Shown piece after piece: positions 1-55,703 of a DNA stretch of 64,000 bases (the first letter of the stretch is position 1; each line of letters opens with the position of its first letter). Location: NCBI RefSeq assembly GCF_910592395.1, contig NC_088318.1, positions 17,918,349-17,982,348 on the forward strand, read 5' to 3'. This DNA is from Lineus longissimus. Its lineage: Eukaryota > Nemertea > Pilidiophora > Heteronemertea > Lineidae. The notes beneath the pieces are model-generated. The model saw only the letters and a program-made list of their open reading frames with translations, made no database searches and was not told where the DNA came from. The position numbers and the translations under genes are program-made.

Positions 1-29817
<29,817 letters not shown>

Positions 29818-39774: not shown

Positions 39775-40877
39775 TCATATTTCGTTATTACACATTGCTA
39801 TCCAATTTGCAGGATAATATTCAGGATAATTGAATTGAGAAGCAAGGCTTGATCCCGCTCTTGCAGGTGTTTTATAGTAAATCACCTCTCCACCAGCTAA
39901 CCAACTAGCCCACCAACCAAAACTTCCAACAGACATGATCACGTGGTCACATCGTGACATGATGGCCAAGTCTACTTCCTGTCTCTTGCCTTCTACAAAT
40001 CTGATGTCATCGTTGACGGCATGCAACGCCGACTTTGCCCAGTCAATGCCATTTGAGCAAACGACAAATGAAACATTTTTGTACTTGTCACGAAAATAAT
40101 TCATCGATCTGTTAAAGTAATCTTCATCTGGTACGAGATAACCGTAACTTTTAAAAGGTTCGACAAGGATGTCCCCTCTGCGGATATGTACTGCAACCAG
40201 AGTAACGTTCTGCTTGGAACCTCTTAATGCATCCAAAACGCCCGATGCTTCCTTTGATATCTCTGTATTGAATGTGAAATGTCTTCGGATTACTTCGTTA
40301 TATTTTGAGAAATACTTCCACGATTGTCTGTATCCCGTCATTTCGGCCCTTGCGCCCTTCAAGTCCAAGTGTTCTACGTTGTTGCTGTAGGCACAGCTCT
40401 GTGATTCTCCAATGACGGTAAGTTTTGTGAAGTCCGTCCCCTCCGCATAGATGGTCGGGTCTCCAAGTATAAACATTTTTGGGAGTAAGCCGCCTTTGCT
40501 GATGAATGGGACGAGGTTATTCCTCATGGCGGTACCAACCATGGCGGAATATTCAAACATCTGGTTTCCAGTCCCGCCATTAAACCTCGTGGTAATTTGT
40601 CCACTGCGCATGGCGCCGGACGTTGCAATTTCAGTGGAAAGACTTGTTGCTTCCGTCTCTTGGCGTCGCGTAAGAAGTAATTTTAGCAGCAACGTATGAT
40701 TGTTTGTAGTCCGAATGGTTTGGTTATAAACAGGGTTGGAAACCACTTCGAAGGCTGAAGCCTGCGTGTTCCTAATGATTCGCCCCATCCATTTTTCCTC
40801 TGACGCCAACATGTAGCCGGCCATGAAGCCGGTGATGGTCATAAGAATTGTCAGAAACACTTGAATAAATTTGAAAC
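39775..40877 (-). CDS. Fucosyltransferase exon 2 (catalytic domain)
   Basis: A single uninterrupted exon holds the membrane anchor and the whole catalytic domain, ending ANWIAMCNNEI and TGA. Confidence 0.93.
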
Positions 40878-41282
40878 CTGGAAAGGAAATGAGGACGCAT
40901 TAGTGATTTTCAATCTGGCACATGTCCGAGTGTTGGAAATACTACATAATTGTTCTGAATATTTCTCTCTCTGACTCTATGGTATCATTCATGCTAAAAA
41001 CAATGCAGGGTCAAAGATAATTGACTTTGAAATGAGCTCAAATGCGTAGAAATAAGTGTCGATGTCCGACTGTCACGTGACTAAAACGTCATCAATATCT
41101 TATTCAAATGACCTTGTGAGCTATAAATAGTAACTTCGCGGAATGCTATTGCTTACAAGATTTCAAATTCAAGCCAAAATGGTGATACCTCTGGTCAACC
41201 CTTAACGATCACCGCTCAACTCCAATATTAAGCAATTAAATTACATATTGATAAAAAGCCTACCGTTGGTTCTCTGCATCAT
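39775..41282 (-). CDS. GT11 galactoside alpha-1,2-fucosyltransferase-like protein
   Basis: Two coding exons, 41264-41282 and 39775-40877, give 373 residues. Family knowledge: GT11 enzymes are Golgi type II membrane proteins that move fucose from GDP-fucose onto terminal galactose in alpha-1,2 linkage. Seen: a short cytosolic tail (MMQRTNG), one signal-anchor segment (residues about 10-30, VFLTILMTITGFMAGYML) and a stem with sequons. The GT11 block RFNGGTGNQMFEYSA starts near 105, the GDP-fucose motif VAVHIRRGD near 234-242, and the C-terminal block SVGSFGWWASWLAG near 322-335. Full length, with no broken motif. The GTG at 40860 in the second exon is not the start: exon 1 supplies ATGATG in good context, and the split GGT codon joins in phase. 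Exact acceptor specificity cannot be read from sequence. Confidence 0.92.
40878..41263. other. Fucosyltransferase intron
   Basis: 386 bp. On the opposite (plus) strand it contains CTATAAATAG at 41121-41130 followed by an eight-codon open frame; not called as a promoter. Confidence 0.8.
41264..41282 (-). CDS. Fucosyltransferase exon 1 (19 nt of coding sequence)
   Basis: ATGATGCAGAGAACCAACG followed by donor GTAGGC encodes MMQRTN plus one base. It joins the exon at 40877 (acceptor ctttccag) in phase 1. The noncoding part extends upstream. Confidence 0.85.
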
Positions 41283-44590: not shown

Positions 44591-44727
44591 ATGATCGGAT
44601 ACAGGGTAATTCTGATAATCGAATGGACTGTCTGGGCCGTCGACGCCCTTTTGAAACTTAATGGTGGTGGTAGTTCCTTCCCCAGCCCAGTCTACCTCTC
44701 CTGGATGCAGGCTTTCGAACTATCACG
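44591..44727 (+). CDS. Alternative or duplicated first exon of the PstS-type guanylate cyclase
   Basis: From ATG at 44591 it encodes MIGYRVILIIEWTVWAVDAL (signal-peptide-like), then KLNGGGSSFPSPVYLSWMQA and FELSR, ending in phase 2 at donor GTAAGC. Exon 1 at 45498 encodes SLNGGGASFPSLVYLSWKHT and ends in phase 2 as well. The frame is also open further upstream (to 44429). It could splice to the exon at 45767, making an alternative N terminus, or be the remnant of a tandem gene copy. No second copy of exon 2 is convincing between 44728 and 45497. Confidence 0.65.
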
Positions 44728-45497
44728 GTAAGCCAATGATTAGATCAAATTAGTTTGCATGACGACCACAATTCGTCCCTTGAGACTCAAAATGTGGTAA
44801 GTGACATACGGAGTATTTCAGAAGTGGCAAGGTTATTTCCCGTAACTAATAATATCCCGCAGCAGGATAACCTATGATTGGACGTTGAGATAACTTGGGA
44901 AGGTTTTGTAAGTGAAAACGGAGCTAGTGAAAGTCGCTTATGACCTAAGGTTTCACAAGGGACGCACAGAAGTGACTGTGGCCAAAGGTACAACTTCACA
45001 CAGTGTAAATAAAGCACTTCATCAAGAGAAAGTGGCACATTTGAAGAGTTCAGATGCAAAACCACTGAATCCATTTCACGTATTTTCTGCTGTAGCTCTT
45101 GATGGCACTTGACTACCTTCTTGTCCTTGCAACTTCAGTTGTTCATCCATACAGTATTTCTCGAGCACGTCCTTTTGACCTCCGTCTTGAGTATGCCAAC
45201 TACCTTACCCGTGTCTTGAATATTGACGTCCTTTCGGACAAATGGGCAATTCTTCACGGATCGTGTGACCTGATGCAAAGTTTCCATGATTACCTGAGTC
45301 TGATATCAATCAAATCGTTACTGGTTAACTTTAAGTGTCATAGACAGCTATAGACGAAGCTTGGGTCAATTCTATCTTTAGCAGATATCGGATTCCTGCT
45401 CATCAAATTGCCTGTCACCTTGTCAGAGGTATCACTAATAAGTCTGTGGTGTAGCAAGGGCGCAGGATTCTGTTCAGTCACCTCAGGGTAATAAACG

Positions 45498-45664
45498 ATG
45501 CGAATAAGAGTCGTGGTAGCCGTTTTGGCTTTCCAACTTTACATTGGACGACGGTTATTGGCGTTTGGGGCGACTGAGCCCGCAACTGTGTCACTGAACG
45601 GCGGTGGTGCATCATTTCCAAGTCTCGTCTACCTCTCTTGGAAACACACATTCAGACTCGTTCG
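45498..45664 (+). CDS. PstS-type guanylate cyclase exon 1
   Basis: ATG at 45498; signal peptide MRIRVVVAVLAFQLYIGRRL; first pocket motif GGGASFPS (residues 35-42); donor GTAGGT; phase 2. Confidence 0.92.
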
Positions 45665-48600
45665 GTAGGTGGTCCTTTATCACTTGTGTGTAGATATTTT
45701 CTTGCCTTTGTTGTGTATGATGAGTTCTAATGGAATGAAATATCATAGGTCTTGATTCTCTTCCAGAAAGGACTTCAATGATGTTGACATTACCTATGAC
45801 GTAACAGGCAGCGGTAGGGGGCAAGAGATGATAAAGAATGGCACTAACAAGGGCGAGCCAGTCATCTTTGCTGGGTCAGATTCCTTGCTGAATGAGACCG
45901 ATCACCAACAGTACCCGGACTTACAGATGTTACCAATGATTGCTGGGTGAGTAGGCCTACCCATAGAACGATCCTTTCTCCGATGGAGTGGCCAAGCTAT
46001 ATTTGCTCCGTAGCGGTCAATTACTTGGTACTGTTATCAAAGCGAGGCTTGAAGATTGAGAAAGATCATGCAACGTCCCAACTCCGCTATATAAAACTAC
46101 AAACGGCAAACTGATCATTTGTCGAAATCTAGCCAAAATGTGTCACTTAAGAAAACAAGATGGCATTCACTATGTCTACCTTCAGCTCATAAGATCTTTT
46201 TTTCCAGATCCGTCGTATTGAGCTATAACCTTCCAAAAATCAACGGTAGACTCTTCTTGTCTCGAGACCAACTTGTTGGCATTTACAATGGGACAATAAC
46301 CATGTGGAACGACGCATCACTCCAAGCGATGAACCCGGGCATCAATCTCCCAGCACAAAAAATAATCGTCATCGCAAGAATGGACAAATCAGGAACCACG
46401 GAAATATTCACATCGGCGCTGTCGGCGATTTCGCCCGAATGGAATGCAACATACGGGACATTCAGCCAGGGTGTGGACTCAGATTTGGTGCCGGTGCACT
46501 GGAATGCTTCGGTTGTGGACTATTTTGGATATCAGGGGCGCGGCGCATCGGGTCTGATTTTAAGTTTTCCGTATTCAATTGGATATATGTCACTGGCAGA
46601 TGCTGTCGATTCGGATATGCAATACGCTTATCTTGTGAACAAAGCGGGAAATATCATCGAGCCGACAATGCAAAGTGTTCAAAGTGCAATGGACGATTTC
46701 ATTGGGTCATTTAACAAGTATTTCACGGCTTCTATCATAGATGCCCCCGGTGATTATTCCTATCCTATAGCAGCGTATAGCTACTTCATAGTCTACAAAA
46801 CAGGCATGAAAGATTGTGACGCGGCCATTGAGCTTGTCAGATTCATCGAGTGGGCCTTTAATGACGAATTTGCAAGACGTATATGCGAGAAACATCACAT
46901 GGTTTGTCTAAGTAAACAGGTCGTCGCAAAGGTATTCAACGATGTCCTAAAAACCCTCACATGTGGGGATGGAACCAATGTGGACAAAGCCGTAGAGGAT
47001 CAACGCTACTGGGAGAAATTAAGCCAAGAGACGTGGAGGATCCCAACGTATGTCGGCGTCCCTCTAACGCTTATCTTTATCATTCTCTTATCGTTTGGCA
47101 TTTCGTATCAGCAGTTTAAAAGATACCGGCGGATTTTGAAAGGGGAATGGAAGTTGAACCTTTCAGAGTTAGTCCTGTTAAACGCCGGTGATCGCACGAA
47201 GAGCTCCCAATCTGTCATGAGTAGTAATACCATGGATGCACGGCACACTGTTCGCTGGGCTTTCTCTTCCAAGATGAAGGTCGCCATTTTGGATGACGTC
47301 AAACTCATGCTCCACGCGATGGAGAACATCCCACACGAGAGTATCAGGTACACCACGATGTTTGAGATTCTCCGAATGAAGGACACCATTAAGGACACGA
47401 ACATCTGTAGCTTTTATGGACTAGCCGTCATTGAGGATACCTACTATCTTGCCCGCGAGTTCTGTGCCAAGGGAATCCTTCAAGAAGTGCTTCAGGACGA
47501 CAACTTTCAACTTGATATCAATTTCAAATATTCCATGGCAATAGACGTTTGTCAAGGGATGGTTTATTTGGAGAAAAAGGGTATTGTTCATGGCTTTTTG
47601 ACGTCTCACTGTTGTTACTTGGACGGGAGATGGAATGTTAAGATATCTGACTGGGAGATATCTAAGTTACAGTCCATCCAATTATACAATCTAGCTCAGG
47701 ATGTAAAATTGTATGAACCCGAGAATTATGCAGATCTATTCTGGACTGCGCCGGAAGTGTTGACATCACGTGAGAATATCACGTGGCACAGTGACGTGTA
47801 CAGCTTTGCTATAATTGCGTACGAGATCTTCACCAGAGCGGGGCCTTACGATGATCATCTGGACATATTGCGGGCCAGTGAAATTGTTCAAAGAGTGATG
47901 TCAGAAAGCCTACGTCCTAGGCTATCAGGTCAAATAGATGTTCCCAACGACCTTCATCCAATCCTAAAAAGGCTGTGGTCAAAGAAATTAGAGGAGCGCC
48001 CCAATTTCTCAGCAACGATGAAACTGTTGTCGAAAACCCGCAAGACCAGAAAGTGTGTTCTTGACTGCATGATGGACGCAATGGCTGGTTACATGAACAG
48101 CCTGGAGGAGAAGGTCAATGATAGGACTAAGGAGCTCGAAGGTGCCATGATGCGGGTGAAGACCGTCCTACATCAGATTTTACCGCCCGCCGTTGCCGAA
48201 AAACTTTCAAATGGAGAGGCAGTGGCGCCAGAATACTTCGATTCCGTCACAATTATGTTTTCCGACATCGTCGGTTTTACAACGATTGCTTCTCTTCTGA
48301 CTCCGCTCGAAGTGGTAGACTTTTTAAACTCCTTGTACCTGACCTTCGACTTGATCATAGACAAATACGATGTTTACAAAGTCGAAACAATCGGCGATGC
48401 CTACATGGTGATCTCCGGTCTTCCACACAAAAATGGAATCGAGCATGCGCAGAACATTGCAAACATGGCGCTGGATTTTGTTAATGCTATGAGCGGCGCA
48501 AGAATTTTCAACATGCCGAAGCGACCCGTTGAGCTCAGGGCTGGATTCCATTCCGGTCCCGTGACTGCCGGGGTTGTTGGGATGAAGATGCCACGATATT

Positions 48601-49231
48601 GTTTGTTCGGCGACACGGTAAACGTAGCCTCAAGGATGGAGTCGACCTCAGTTCCTATGAAGATCCAGATCACAGCGTCATCTCACAAATTACTTGTCCA
48701 GATTGGCGGTTTCGTCATGCAAGAGAGGGGTCAAACTGAAATTAAGGTAAAAGTTGTCTCATGGGGAGGGTATTAGTTGGTGCAGCTTAGATTTGGTACC
48801 GTCCGTTAAAGGGTTTTTCAGATAGATCTGGCCAAAGTTACTTGGCTGACCTCTTGTCACTAAACTGTAATAGTGTGATCACAAATAGTAATGTTACACA
48901 GCCCTGGGCAGCCGGTGTCACAGTTGACCGGCTTTAGTTGACATCTTCAAAGAGCATTTGCTTATGCCTACCCTAAGGGAAATCGAGGGCTGTGCAACAC
49001 CACTACCTTTTGGCCCTAGTTCAACCAGGTACCTTTGGCCGGAACGATATGAAAAACACTCTAAAAAGCCCGGCAACCAATCCAGCATTTTTCTTTCTCT
49101 TTCAGGGAAAGGGCAAGATGACAACCTACTGGTTACTGCAGAGGATCACACAGAATAGTAAGGATGGCGACTGCGTGTTCGTTAGCGTAAGGGAATCACA
49201 GAAATGCGAGGGTCCGTTGATGTCCGTATGA
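45498..49231 (+). CDS. Receptor guanylate cyclase with PstS-like phosphate-binding ectodomain
   Basis: Exons 45498-45664, 45767-45946, 46208-48746 and 49106-49231 join in phase to 1003 residues. Seen: an N-terminal hydrophobic signal (about 1-22). A PstS-like type II periplasmic-binding domain follows (about 30-370: LNGGGASFPSLVY, DVTGSGRGQEM, FAGSDSLL, YNGTITMWND, RMDKSGTTEIF, SIGYMSLADA). Then come one membrane span (about 398-418), a kinase-homology domain (about 490-725, with HGFLTSHCC and DWE instead of DFG), a dimerisation linker and a class III cyclase (about 795-980). Metal-binding Asp802 and Asp846 and guanine-selecting Glu842 and Cys914 are present, so cGMP synthesis is expected. 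Five sequons support an extracellular ectodomain. Known receptor cyclases usually carry an ANF-receptor ectodomain instead. Predicted role: a plasma-membrane receptor for phosphate or a related oxyanion (inference). Confidence 0.95.
45767..45946 (+). CDS. PstS-type guanylate cyclase exon 2
   Basis: Acceptor cttccag, donor GTGAGT. It encodes KDFNDVDITYDVTGSGRGQE and NKGEPVIFAGSDSLLNETDH, holding two phosphate-loop motifs (Ser71, Asp94). Phase 2 in, phase 2 out. Confidence 0.94.
46208..48746 (+). CDS. PstS-type guanylate cyclase exon 3 (rest of ectodomain, membrane span, kinase homology, cyclase)
   Basis: Acceptor tttttccag completes a Gly codon and reads SVVLSYNLPKINGRLFLSRD. One 2.5-kb exon spans most of the protein. 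It ends QERGQTEIK at donor GTAAAA, where the open frame would otherwise run into an unrelated 10-residue tail before a stop at 48774-48776. Confidence 0.95.
49106..49231 (+). CDS. PstS-type guanylate cyclase exon 4 (C terminus)
   Basis: Acceptor tctctttcag. It encodes GKGKMTTYWLLQRITQNSKD, the canonical end of receptor guanylate cyclase domains (EIKGKGxMxTYWL), and stops at TGA 49229-49231. This shows that the frame's longer run at 48747-48776 is intron. Confidence 0.93.
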   Translation, partial: GKGKMTTYWLLQRITQNSKDGDCVFVSVRESQKCEGPLMSV

Positions 49232-50016: not shown

Positions 50017-53000
50017 TCAGATTTCTGTAACTCGTCGTTTATGCGTCCGTCTACCTGTGGACAAGAAATCTAAACTTGCTGTGCGGACTGGCGCTGGACT
50101 TGTAGGTGCGTACCTGATTCTGTAGATAGGGGAGTCCGGTGGTGGAGGCGGGGGAGGCGGCGGCGGCGAGGGGCTTGGAAGAGGGGAGGGCGTTGGGAGA
50201 GGAGAGGGAGTAGGGAGAGGAGACGGTGTAGGGATATCCTGGTCAAGGTACTCAGTCGATGGTGTCTCTGGGTAGTGCTGGAAGTGGTTTGGGATTCGAT
50301 CAAGAGATCGTACGGAGTACGTCGGGCGGCGGTGCGGACAACCTGCATTGACTCTCCGCGTGGCACACGGTGGGCTGATGGGTCTCACAGCACAATGCGC
50401 TGTGCTGCACCTATGCCTGGAGAAGCTTGCAGATCGCGCCGGGCTCGTAGACAGGGATTTCATACTATCCCGCATCCGGCTGTAGCGCCGATGAGGACAG
50501 TAATCAAGCGGAATATTATTAGCGTCCGAAACGATCACATTATGAACCGAATTCGGCCTCATTGGTTTCTTTCGAGGTAACGAGTTTGATCGAAGATCAG
50601 TTATCATGGTGAACTCTTCGATAAAAGACGCAGTCCCATTCTCAAGATCATCGGAATCCAAATCGTCTTCATCCTCCTCATCCTTATCACTGTTATTGCA
50701 ACTCCCAGGGGCTGGAACCTGCAAGAAACCGCCGCTAGGGCCGAACCTGACACACAGCGCTTGGAAATAGAAAGTCGAATAAAGCCAACTTACGAAAGTT
50801 ACGATGAGAGTATACGTAGTCACTTGGTATACACCGAAATAAACAGCAGGCAAAACGCACAAGGCGGAGGTGAAAATTGTGAGTGTTGTCATGCAGACCG
50901 CCGGTCCAACTTGCGTGAAGGAGTCTTTTACTCGGTCGTCTCTCTTGATGTAATCGGACTGGCGGTAGGCAATGGCGTAACGAACAGTGTTGCTGGTCGA
51001 TAATCCAACTGATATTGATAATATTCCGCATTCTAGAAGATTGAGCTCCCACCCTAGGAAGATGAGGATCCCCACTGAGACAGCAGTTGCGAAAATGATT
51101 GAGACGGCCGCGTAGATGGTCAGCAGGAAGTTCATAGTCGTCACGAGAATGACCAAAGACACTATGCCAAACGCGATGGCGATGGCCAAAGTACTAGTCG
51201 GTCGGAGCGCCACCTGGAGGTCATAGAAATCAAAAGAAGAAAAGAACCAGGCACTGTCTAGACCAGTTGGAGCACCTTGCCGAGAAACCTTCACGAACCT
51301 TTTTATTTTCTTGTAGAAGGCTGCGACTGCGTTATACTCTGCGGACCAGTGGTCTGTCGTAACAACACTGAAGATGAATACTGTAATGTTATCTCGGCTG
51401 TCGAAGAGTGGCTTGCCTAGAAATTGAAATGGACTGGCACTGCTGTTATCATACACCAAATATTGGAACAACTTTGCGAAACATTTTACCATTGTTTCGC
51501 GATGGTATGGAAAGTGGGAGACCGGCCTCTCGCAACACGGGGAATGGTCTACTTTAGGGACTGCTGCGTCCCTGCAGGGCCGGGCCATTGCGGGCGGTAT
51601 GAGATCCATGGTACACTTCAGCTTCCTGCTGTGTGTCCCTAAAAACGGCTGCGCAACAAGGCGATGACAGAACTGGTGAAGCCACTCTATAGTCCGCGGG
51701 TGGTAAAAATCAAATCGTGTGTCAAACACTGTAGTTCCTCGATCATTTGGGTCAAGCCAGTTACCATTGTCAGCTGGTAACGTCCCGAAGACTATCTGAA
51801 TTGTAAAATTCTGCGGATTGGCCCCTTCTGTGTCACGATCAGATAGTAATAAGTGATTAAATTTGTTGTTTAGATTCATGAAGGTGCCGAGAGGATGGTC
51901 TTCTTGGAACGTCCGGATACCTTTATATCGAGGGAACGTAATATTAGGCCAATAGTAAATGCATATGAGACCGCCAATACCGAAAATGGTAAATCCAGCT
52001 ATCCAAACGTACCAGAACCGTAACACTATCATTGGCAAGCAACTTCCATATACAAAATTCCTAAAACCCTTTATCCTTTTGACTAATCCTTCAACGCACA
52101 AATGACACGAATTTTTCCGCTGCGTTGACGAATTTTCCGTTTCGTTTCGTTTTGTGCTATCCTGTTCACGTTTTAGATACTCCTTACTCTTCTGCACTAC
52201 TTTTTCGTTTAAAACTAAGATGGCGGGCACTACTGTCATGACAAGACAAAAATTCACAACTATTCCCGTTCCGGAGAGCATTCCAAAAAGGCGAATGGAA
52301 GTGATGTTGTTTGAATAATTTGCATAGAAAACGGAAGCAATTGTAAAAGATGCCACGAAGTTCGACAATGCTGTATGATGAAGCACGCTTGACAATCTTT
52401 CTTCAAGTGTAGCCTCGGGTTTCGCGAGTTTTACCTGATGCCATAGGTCAAAGGCCAAGTAAATGACGTCTGCTCCTATTATTATGTAAATGAGGACGGC
52501 ACAGAAATTAACATAAGGAAAGAAGTCCAATCCAAAGATGACGTGGTAAAAAAAGTATGAAATGACACAGGTCATTCCGAAGCAGGCGGTAGTTGCCACG
52601 GCTACGACGACCTCTTGGAAGAACATGCACATCATCAGCAGAGCAACAAATACCCCGAGAGATATCAACCCGACGTCTGAATTGAAATAGGAATCAAATA
52701 TGATACTATTTTTTATGACGTCAATCGAAATTACGCGTAAATTCCTCGGTTGTAATTTCCCAGCTTTGTAAACATCCTGGTAGAAACTATCCGTCAGTTT
52801 TTCATCCATCCTTGTCATGGGTAGATGAACGACCGTCATTGAGCCTTTGTCCTTTGGTATTAAATCAACTGCGGGGTTCATGAAATTGCTGTCCATCAGA
52901 TAGGTGAAGATATTATAAACAACGTTGTATTCCGTGCACATGTTTTGAACACCCGGGCACTTATGCGGATTTTGGTAGCAGTCTGATAATAGGAAGCCAT

Positions 53001-53252
53001 TGTAGAAATCCCGCGCGCACGCGCGGATGATTTTTTTCGCCATCGTGACGTCAGTGTCGGTTAGGTCTGCACATGCTTTACGCCTCATCACACCAACATA
53101 ATGTCCTATTGATAACGACGGACATGTTTTGTTGACACCGGGATACGCCATGATGACTTCGGTGTCCATTTTGCAGATTGTGCGCATGACGGAAGACGAG
53201 AAAATGTCACCTCCGAACTTTCCCTTGATGAATAGTTTCACTCTTTCTTTAC
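50017..53252 (-). CDS. Dispatched-like last exon (spans 2-12 and cytosolic tail)
   Basis: A 3.2-kb exon with acceptor taatttcag, ending in TGA at 50017-50019. The apparent start at 53241 is an in-frame GTG. The tail has a DEEDEDDLDSDD acidic run, Ser/Arg-rich stretches, and PTPSPL repeats running into about ten prolines near 50150. Confidence 0.93.
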
Positions 53253-55703
53253 CTGAAATTAGTGAAGGTAAAAGTAGAAGTTATTAGTGCCTAAAAAGGT
53301 TGGTACGAGCACAGCCACCTGCCATCTTCGTCACTTACCATGGAGAGGGTGGTCACCTGATCTTACCTCTTCCATGCATGGCTGACAATCATTCAATATC
53401 CGGGGCACTTCCTCATGAGCAAACATGATACAGTGATTTGTAACGATTGTCATCCAATCTCGGCAATTCGACAGTTGGGAATGCTTCATTGTTATCAATG
53501 TCAAGCCAAGTGCAAGACAGGGTTTATTCATGCGCTTTCGAAGCCCGGATAAATGTACATGAAGATTCTTGGTTCTCAGCTTAGAATCTGAGAGGCAGAT
53601 TGGCAGAGATATATGTCATTGTTGTAAAAAAGGAAACACTCCAATACATCACTGCGGCATCCTAAAGAACCACTAAATGTTTTTTTTTCTGTTACCTGTT
53701 GCACGGATGTATAGCAAACTTTACATCCGTGATGGTAGTTTTTTGAGGTTTTTTCTGTGAATGGACACGAAATAATAGTTACCTATAGGTTCATACAAGC
53801 GACACTGGTATAAAACATCTGACGCAAAGTCGGAAGACTCGATGGTATCTTGAGGAAGGCTCGAGTCACGGGAGCCAGCAGGGGCTAAAGTAGGCAAGGG
53901 GTAGTCCTCCAACCCCGGGTACCATCGCGTAGGCTTTGGTAAGTAGCTGAATTTACCCTTGCGGATACCGGCTTGGAGGTGATACATTGCTAAGCTGGCA
54001 TTCTTGATCTTGGTACCTCTTGGTTCGAAGCCCTGGAAAAATGGCCAGATTTTAATATTTTCAACAACCAAATATGTTTTTTGCGTAAGCAGTGCCATGC
54101 ACTTCCACATGTTCAGAATACCGGTGTATCAATGTATCTTGCCAATGTATGTTTCAATCAACCGTAAAAACGCCTGCCCTCAGAGCATCGCACGCCAATC
54201 ATTCCCCATTGTACGATCGCATTCTTACGGCGTCTAATGCCTCTCCTTGGATCGATTCTCCACGGCTAAGATAAGTCGATACATCCCATTTTAAGTGAAA
54301 TTTAAACCAATATGTTGGTGGAGAATGTCTCTTGTATTGAGCTAAGATTGGAATAACGCTATGAAATATTGAAGATACGATTTTCGTGAGTTTGATTTTA
54401 AAAGAAGAACTGATTCAAACTCAAGTATGAATACAAATATTTAGGAATAGACGAATACAAAGAATTCAGAAGGCCGTAGTTACATAGGGTTCACGTTGTC
54501 TCTTGTCATGTTTCACTTGTCACGAGCTAGTTAACTGACTTAGGCTTGAAAACACGACGTAAGGGTGAAAAGTGACATCGTGAATCGTATGTAGCCCGCT
54601 CTTTGGAAATGACATGTTCATTCTTCATGTCACACATGAAAAGTGACACGTTACATGTGAACTTCATATGATTATGAATAGTGACTGTATAAAAACGTAG
54701 ATGGTATCTACTGTAGCATTATAAGCTGGTATGAAGGTCAGGATCATCCTTTCACACAGGGCTCTGAGATCGCAAAGCAGTTAATTGAGCGAGGTCGGGG
54801 TTAGATAGTCAGAGTCAAAGAATGGATTCTGATCTGGTAACGGATACGTTTAAGCAACCGTTACGCCGTCGACGAAAAGATTATAGATGACACTTTGCCC
54901 TGCCTTCCCGCAGGCCTTGGGCAGCTGACAGGTCATTTCACCCTGGCAGTCAAACAACAACTACACTGTAATGTGCAGTGAAAGAGATAATCAAGATACT
55001 AATCTATTGTTAATCTCGTTTAAGAATGTGATTCAGATCCTTGATAGATCGGCATAGTTCCATCGTCTATTAGATTTGTTAAACGATAATCACGTTACAT
55101 TGTCATTCGAGATTGTGCAAATTGAAAGCTCCGATCAGTGTTTACGCGGCCATTTTTCTTTTGATTCCCTGGGTAGAGGAATATGGTCGTCCAGGTTTTG
55201 ATATCCTGTAATTTTGTTAATACAACTTTGTCATACGGAAAGAGGACTGTCCCGAAGAAAAAGACGACCTCTTTGGCAGAAAATCTTTCGTCATTGTTAT
55301 CATCATTACCCCCATTCGCTGTACCATTTGCGTTATTGAATAATTTGCTAGGCGATTAGGAAGAGCACGCCACTAGAAAAATCAGCCAATTGCAAGAGGT
55401 GATTAGTTCGGCAGGTGTTCCTATCATCACATTGAAGACTAAAAAATCAGTTAATAATTTACATTGTGATGAAAAAAAAGCTTTTATGCACAGAATAGGA
55501 CTGATGGTTATTCAGGACGGTGGTGCTGTCTCACAACATTTTGACATCTCAGAAGCACCACGTGATCACCTACCTTCATTTGATTGGATAGATCGGGAAT
55601 CAAGGGCGGACGGTGGACCAAGATCCCGGTCAGAGCGAGGCTGAGGATGAGGATGACTATCAATACGACCACCAGGGGATATCGCGCCACGAAACGAGAA
55701 TAA
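50017..55703 (-). CDS. Dispatched-family RND protein, 5' end not found
   Basis: Exons 55574-55703, 53783-54032, 53339-53587 and 50017-53252 join in phase (about 1287 residues; the first exon begins mid-codon, so N-terminal residues are missing). Family knowledge: Dispatched proteins are 12-span RND transporters; DISP1 releases lipid-modified Hedgehog, powered by an ion gradient. Seen: first span RYPLVVVLIVILILSLALTG, the diagnostic GFEPRGT after it, and a Cys-rich first ectodomain. A sterol-sensing-like block of five spans lies near 52680-52210 (IIIGADVIYLAFDLW in span 4), then a second ectodomain. Spans 8-12 lie near 51200-50750 (LGWELNLLECGILSISVGLS; VGPAVCMTTLTIFTSALCVL). A long cytosolic tail has acidic, Ser/Arg and Pro-rich parts and ends VTEI. 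Two of the three transport-critical Asp positions differ, so activity or orthology to DISP1 is uncertain; DISP3-like is possible. Confidence 0.9.
53339..53587 (-). CDS. Dispatched-like exon (first ectodomain)
   Basis: 249 bp with acceptor cctctcag and donor GTAAGT; phase 1 on both sides fits the neighbours exactly. It encodes LSNCRDWMTIVTNHCIMFAH and RILNDCQPCMEE. The internal ATG at 53531 is not a start. Confidence 0.8.
53783..54032 (-). CDS. Dispatched-like exon (GFEPRGT and first ectodomain)
   Basis: 250 bp with acceptor ttttccag and donor GTAACT. It begins GFEPRGTKIKNASLAMYHLQ; GFEPRGT is diagnostic of Dispatched. Confidence 0.92.
54033..55573. other. Dispatched-like intron
   Basis: 1.5 kb. 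Around 54500-54660 there are several related GTGACA/TGTCAC motifs (AAAAGTGACATCGTGAA, AAAAGTGACACGTTACA), apparently a small degenerate repeat. Nothing else supported. Confidence 0.7.
55574..55703 (-). CDS. Dispatched-like exon (first transmembrane span)
   Basis: 130 bp with acceptor ttttcag and donor GTAGGT. It encodes YSRFVARYPLVVVLIVILIL and HRPPLIPDLSNQMK, typical of the first span of Patched/Dispatched proteins. It enters in phase 2, so at least one coding exon lies upstream. Confidence 0.9.

Follow-up and report, generated by a model that had tools for sequence, protein, structure and literature searches.

A PstS-type ectodomain on a predicted receptor guanylyl cyclase of the nemertean Lineus longissimus

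The window analysed here is a stretch of 64,000 nucleotides from Lineus longissimus (NCBI RefSeq assembly GCF_910592395.1, contig NC_088318.1, forward-strand positions 17,918,349 to 17,982,348). The gene at window positions 45498-49231 (+ strand) probably codes for a receptor that senses extracellular inorganic phosphate directly and is coupled to cyclic GMP (cGMP). The encoded protein consists, in order, of a signal peptide, a PstS domain, one membrane span, a kinase-homology domain and a guanylate cyclase, the signal peptide and the span being assigned by hydropathy only. The case for an ectodomain that binds phosphate, joined to a working cyclase, is about as strong as sequence allows, and we infer from it that phosphate may drive cGMP output.

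The gene has four exons and encodes 1003 amino acids and a stop codon, its final base being exactly 49231. GT-AG choices were enumerated across the region; all three introns of the selected model are GT-AG and the reading phase is kept, while other choices for the last intron, or a shift of the exon 1/2 junction by a few bases, gave 1001-1006 amino acids. This bears out the complete, phase-consistent gene proposed for the same interval in the initial annotation. Exon 1 (45498..45664, +; ATG, donor GTAGGT, phase 2) carries the signal peptide, the hydrophobic segment of which begins at residue 5, and the first pocket loop LNGGGASFP, with S39 and F40 placed by the pocket alignment at 45612-45617. 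Exon 2 (45767..45946, +; splice model and pocket alignment) encodes the PstS N-lobe, including the pocket residues S71 (45810-45812) and D94 (45879-45881). The remaining PstS, the membrane span, the kinase-homology domain and most of the cyclase lie in exon 3 (46208..48746, +; open frame, splice model and Pfam), and the cyclase C-terminus, tail and stop in exon 4 (49106..49231, +; splice model). Residues 117-962, which include most of PstS, the parts that follow it and almost the whole cyclase, are unbroken coding in exon 3, so that the fusion is independent of splicing.

The NCBI protein P0001 ('retinal guanylyl cyclase 1-like isoform X2 [Lineus longissimus]', 927 amino acids) is 100% identical to our model from Met77 on, exon 4 included; the joins of exons 2-3 and 3-4 in our model agree with those of P0001. 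Because P0001 begins at Met77, it does not confirm exon 1, which is predicted from its start codon, its hydrophobic segment and a loop matching PstS.

The ectodomain was matched in Pfam by PBP_like_2 (PF12849; E 4.2e-25, residues 26-336, 89.5 bits against a cut-off of 27). An ectodomain of the ANF_receptor type was rejected, since PF12849 was matched instead and PF01094 was absent among the Pfam matches at E<=0.1. The NCBIfam PstS equivalog TIGR00975 scored 226.3 bits, above its cut-off of 205; two further PstS models remained below theirs (NF008171, 146.9 against 339; TIGR02136, 38 against 206.6). The closest PDB match was the PstS entry 8ods (E 3.2e-36), and the 26 PDB sequences found at E<=0.001 bore the names of phosphate-binding, phosphate-transport or DING proteins, and two were named alkaline phosphatase.

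Alignment paired T10, F11, S38, D56, R135, D137, S139, G140 and T141 of Escherichia coli PstS with S39, F40, S71, D94, R173, D175, S177, G178 and T179 of Lineus. All nine positions are kept (9/9, one Thr as Ser); we take these nine to be the phosphate contacts of the E. coli protein and assign their roles on the same assumption. The pocket motif R173-x-D175-x-S177-G178-T179 lies at 46377..46397 (+), and the Asp94/Arg173/Asp175 set is presumed to select phosphate over sulfate. D56 and D137 of PstS are named in the titles of matched PDB entries; the pocket residue names were looked for in PMC5439949 and did not occur there. Five N-glycosylation motifs are present in the ectodomain, and its fusion to a cyclase speaks against a role as a component of the Pst ABC transporter.

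An AlphaFold2 model was prepared for the ectodomain of the Haliotis orthologue P0083, not of the Lineus protein, using a 20-row alignment (predicted local distance difference test score 87.2). It matched phosphate-bound PstS (1quk) with E 3e-33 and a template-modelling score of 0.90 by target; its top PDB matches were entries for phosphate-binding proteins, several of them phosphate-bound mutants. The type II periplasmic-binding-protein (PBP) fold of PstS was thereby found on the orthologue model.

A single membrane span was located by hydropathy at about residues 394-418 (47040..47114, +), the 19-residue peak of 2.17 starting at residues 396-398. It is followed by the kinase-homology domain (47346..48023, +), matched by PK_Tyr_Ser-Thr (PF07714; E 7.8e-34, residues 496-721). 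Read directly, its catalytic motifs are degenerate, with HGF and DWE where HRD and DFG are usual, as in other receptor cyclases. The guanylate cyclase domain (48228..49138, +; Guanylate_cyc, E 2.7e-64, residues 790-973) is interrupted by the last intron. D802, E842, D846, C914, N921 and R925, at the metal, guanine and transition-state positions, are intact; we take the two Asp to bind metal, the Glu and Cys to read guanine and the Asn and Arg to serve the transition state. The solved atrial natriuretic peptide (ANP) receptor 1 aligned at 330 bits over a stretch that starts inside the kinase-homology domain and runs to the cyclase's end. Domain order and catalytic residues are those of a receptor guanylyl cyclase, and the protein is predicted to be one; 7tm_3 (PF00003), the mark of class C G-protein-coupled receptors (GPCRs), was absent among the Pfam matches. 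Pfam, NCBIfam and hydropathy thus agree with the domains first proposed (PstS, membrane span, kinase homology, cyclase), and the profile search upheld a PstS rather than an ANF ectodomain.

A second copy of the exon 1 loop was found by tblastn within the window at 44645-44728 (E 8e-6). It belongs to a candidate alternative first exon (44591..44727, +; phase 2) with its own ATG, a hydrophobic stretch, the variant loop LNGGGSSFPSPVYLSW and the donor GTAAGC. The frame is open from the ATG at 44591 to this donor, and the phase equals that of exon 1, so an in-frame join to exon 2 is available. Between the two copies, dN (nonsynonymous divergence) is 0.36 and dS (synonymous divergence) 1.70 over 28 codons, and the core 20 codons show 2/3/13 differences at codon positions 1/2/3; by these counts the variant loop is under purifying selection. 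The element can best be read as an alternative first exon driven by a separate promoter. It might possibly be the remnant of a duplicate gene, against which the dN/dS of about 0.2 speaks for an exon in use. As tblastn gave no second copy of exons 2-4 in the window, the extra first exon is not part of a whole tandem gene here. With two first exons the receptor would come in two forms, distinguished by signal peptide and first pocket loop.

Relatives were collected by protein searches that scored candidates having 5-residue words in common with Lineus: the ectodomain-region search gave 82 proteins, the ectodomain alone 183 (best 120 used) and the intracellular region 7899 (best 120 used). Family members were required to show a PstS match followed by a receptor-cyclase intracellular match, and at least 70 proteins did so, P0001 included. 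Those with a named animal source come from five phyla: nemerteans (Lineus, Tubulanus), annelids (Owenia, Dimorphilus, Paralvinella), molluscs (Haliotis, Littorina, Patella, Gigantopelta, Babylonia, Batillaria, Liolophura, Saccostrea, Potamilus, Pinctada), a priapulid (Priapulus) and tardigrades (Hypsibius, Paramacrobiotus). One EukProt protein, Nk52_evm35s2340 (P0013), has two tandem PstS domains followed by the same intracellular part as Lineus; we take Nk52 to be the ichthyosporean Chromosphaera perkinsii. The architecture is therefore shared by several phyla and, on these matches, the Lineus protein is not a one-off. No deuterostome member was among the matches listed in the three word-based searches, which do not establish absence from deuterostomes and cnidarians. 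Nine named entries among the matches listed are labelled natriuretic-peptide receptors or retinal cyclases, names that hide the PstS-cyclase family. Tandem PstS domains also occur in P0014, a relative (two domains), and in the EukProt protein P0004 (four matches, pockets degraded).

The 70 proteins contain 71 PstS domains. All nine pocket columns are covered in 20, not counting the spliced Lineus protein; 12 of these match PstS at every position and all 20 retain R-D-S-G. The other 51 are partial, mostly lacking the N-terminal columns, and one shows no pocket column. Changes among the covered domains are Ser at T141 in two, Ser at F11 in the first domain of P0013, Ala-Ser at 10-11 in P0017 and Pro at 10 in P0215; errors of gene modelling or alignment may account for some of the N-terminal differences. 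Glu occupies D56 in P0024, P0032 and P0213. In P0032 and P0213, S38 is additionally replaced by Asn and position 141 is changed; P0213 also has Lys at 10. The Glu at Asp56 in these three proteins perhaps indicates a changed ligand.

The Lineus cyclase was matched in 49 relatives (P0001 excluded), with the six catalytic residues present in 21, lost in 22 and cut off in six. No match to it was obtained in 20 proteins, including P0020 and the full-length P0009 (Gigantopelta). The 11 mollusc-labelled, catalytically degenerate proteins are P0005-P0008, P0010-P0012, P0016-P0018 and P0026. The pocket is as in PstS in 8/11 mollusc domains with all columns covered; the mollusc pocket thus tends to persist where catalysis has been lost, a pattern suggestive of pseudo-cyclase partners in these animals.

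A mechanism was inferred (binding, dimer, coupling and sign) from what was computed (domains, pocket and cyclase residues, family and shared ancestry). The outer PstS domain would bind phosphate between its two lobes, and closure of the lobes would be relayed, via the single span and the pseudokinase, to a dimeric cyclase, changing cGMP output. The sign is guessed as activation, with barely better than coin-flip confidence. Bacterial PstS binds phosphate with roughly micromolar affinity; seawater contains about 0-3 micromolar and body fluids far more. A site keeping the bacterial affinity would therefore be useful mainly facing seawater, and the receptor would for this reason be expected on external sensory cells, like the nematode chemosensory receptor cyclases. 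The initial annotation had raised phosphate sensing coupled to cGMP as a possibility, and the pocket and cyclase residues kept in Lineus leave it plausible.

Several observations weigh against this reading. The start of NCBI isoform X2 lies downstream of both the signal peptide and pocket sites one to three. The modelled structure is that of a Haliotis protein, the full-length relatives of which are catalytically degenerate. At least one pocket position is altered in 8/20 fully covered domains (three with Glu at Asp56), and six of the 50 partly covered domains alter R-D-S-G (five R-E-S-G, one R-D-A-G), 44 keeping it. Catalytic residues are lost in 22/49 relatives, including all 11 labelled as molluscs, Tubulanus and P0013, so cyclase output is not conserved across the family.

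Two other functions were weighed against phosphate sensing. The PstS fold may have been kept for another oxyanion, a phosphonate, a phosphorylated metabolite or a partner protein, as the subgroups with Glu at Asp56 and Asn at Ser38 and the general tendency of PBP folds to switch ligands would allow; we consider this unlikely for Lineus, where 9/9 pocket positions are kept, among them the set assumed to confer selectivity. Phosphate could instead be bound constitutively, the domain being always closed in millimolar body fluid and control being exerted by the pseudokinase, partners or splice form. Body-fluid phosphate would saturate a micromolar site at the concentrations we assume, and fully covered mollusc domains mostly keep the pocket (8/11) while the matched mollusc cyclases are degenerate. 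We nevertheless regard constitutive binding as quite improbable: a ligand pocket kept over such deep time suggests a signal in use, and the two first exons differ precisely in the signal-peptide and pocket-loop region.

The ancestry of the phosphate-binding ectodomain was traced in two trees. Its sequence shares 38-45% identity with PstS of Chloroflexota. The first, a quick tree of 109 rows, united the receptor rows in a 60-row group (Shimodaira-Hasegawa-like approximate likelihood-ratio test 100) adjoining Chloroflexota; P0150 and P0156, which lack the receptor part, fall inside it, and many of the 60 rows, these two among them, carry no source name. P0004, segments shorter than 285 residues (including P0073 and P0082) and two of three unnamed bacteria were left out. 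A genome scan of named prokaryotes ranked 16 Chloroflexota first among 80 loci, and 45 of these loci entered a careful tree of 83 rows, from which the other 35 and many rows of the 109-row tree were omitted. Here a group of 28 was obtained at 100/99, consisting of 26 rows labelled eukaryotic plus P0150 and P0156, and joined 13 Chloroflexota-side rows at 99/93. Among the 26, P0014, P0060, P0062, P0063 and P0081 carry no organism label, and P0065 is presumed from its identifier to be euglenid. Because P0150 and P0156 sit inside the group, the 26 labelled rows strictly require two changes.

In these trees, PstS receptors from animals, fungi, stramenopiles, cryptists and a green alga thus group together inside Chloroflexota PstS. 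The cysteine pair C319/C368 is present in 17/17 Chloroflexota, 15/15 animal or ichthyosporean-type receptor domains, 5/5 Chloroflexota-like rows and both P0150 and P0156 (2/2), and each cysteine in 10/11 other eukaryotic rows. It occurs in 0/33 other prokaryotic rows (at C319, 32 other letters and one gap; at C368, 24 letters and nine gaps), the prokaryotic rows being those closest to the Lineus query. A Chloroflexota donor is the simplest reading, with root and direction presumed. The initial annotation had suggested bacterial transfer followed by intron gain and fusion; the bacterial (Chloroflexota) affinity stands, whereas a recent animal event does not agree with the eukaryote-wide group, class C GPCRs included, that shares the cysteine pair. 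The finding is broader and older than was supposed there. That nemerteans recently acquired the domain from bacteria, or that contaminating bacterial sequence was joined to a cyclase gene, is hardly credible and in its simple form refuted, the identity of 38-45% to Chloroflexota PstS notwithstanding, by introns within the PstS part, one unbroken exon over most of PstS and the cyclase, the same architecture under the labels of five animal phyla and the single grouping of eukaryotic receptors.

For the intracellular part, a tree of 38 rows separated 19 PstS-type from 19 other sequences at 100/100, placing Lineus outside the sampled non-PstS cyclases. Its PstS side comprised catalytically intact members and P0020, and its other side included Hydra and an EukProt Opistho-2 protein (which we take to be Pigoraptor); twelve rows of the degenerate group, P0013 among them, were left out. 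A 40-row tree took in five degenerate members and left out P0020 and two long ANF rows. There P0013, a long branch, joined the ANF side, and the PstS-type rows no longer formed one side of a branch, being together in 2% of 200 bootstrap trees; a single PstS clade including P0013 was not rejected by the approximately unbiased test (p 0.34). This tree omitted P0020, P0243, P0274 and seven degenerate mollusc rows, and P0202 was in neither. The non-PstS rows are those nearest to Lineus, which under-samples cyclase diversity.

We tentatively propose, at rather less than even confidence, that a Chloroflexota-type PstS entered early eukaryotes once and became a general phosphate-sensing ectodomain on class C GPCRs (protists, fungi) and on receptor guanylyl cyclases (Holozoa). 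In protostomes it would serve as a receptor for seawater phosphate, with the two Lineus first exons tuning the pocket, and in molluscs as a catalytically dead partner or decoy. Phosphate receptors would, through the shared eukaryotic group, count as an old sensor that eukaryotes derived from bacteria.

Animal receptor guanylyl cyclases (ANP receptor 1, GC-C, retinal GC and nematode GCYs) likewise have a signal peptide, one span, a kinase-homology domain, a linker and a class III cyclase with guanine-type residues, but the ectodomain of the Lineus protein is PstS (type II PBP), not ANF_receptor. Bacterial PstS, above all that of Chloroflexota (Anaerolineae), shares fold, pocket, TIGR00975 and C319/C368 with the Lineus version, which differs in being the ectodomain of a membrane receptor on a cyclase. 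Class C GPCRs with PBP_like_2 (Heterosigma, Hondaea, Jimgerdemannia) have a PstS ectodomain in the same tree group with the pocket mostly kept; unlike the Lineus receptor they are seven-span proteins without a cyclase. P0070-P0072 are Ser/Thr kinases of bacterial type that carry a PstS domain at the C-terminus, so that PstS is here used independently on a kinase protein; with the kinase N-terminal and a position on another tree branch, they represent a convergent design.

No description of a PstS-type receptor cyclase was found by title or abstract in searches of the open-licence PMC literature aimed at it. Passages of other papers report PBP_like_2 on the fungal glutamate-type GPCR SPPG_06488 (PMC3251606), list PBP_like_2 as an abbreviation (PMC10445921), place an S-helix in receptor cyclases (PMC1592074) and describe ion sensing by nematode receptor cyclases, GCY-8 being inhibited by chloride (PMC5225109). 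Phosphate-sensing mechanisms are called poorly understood in a 2021 review (PMC8199323), which names the three candidates PiT2, FGFR1c and CaSR. The vertebrate candidates CaSR (phosphate-inhibited), PiT1/PiT2 (transporters) and FGFR1c treated in that review are proposed for the role suggested here, reading extracellular phosphate. They are proteins unrelated to the Lineus receptor. A receptor with what appears to be a domain built for phosphate, and with a clear second messenger, bears on the question of animal phosphate sensing; should the tentative proposal above hold, it would be the first receptor of an animal to carry a domain dedicated to binding phosphate.

Rfam matches and tRNA genes both numbered zero. 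A sterol-sensing/Patched-type multi-span gene in one long open frame (50020-53280, - strand) lies tail to tail with the cyclase gene, and a glycosyl transferase family 11 (fucosyltransferase-like) gene is located at 39778-40899 (- strand). A 19-bp tandem array of about 51 copies occupies 4278-5244, where three forward frames are open over much of the length.

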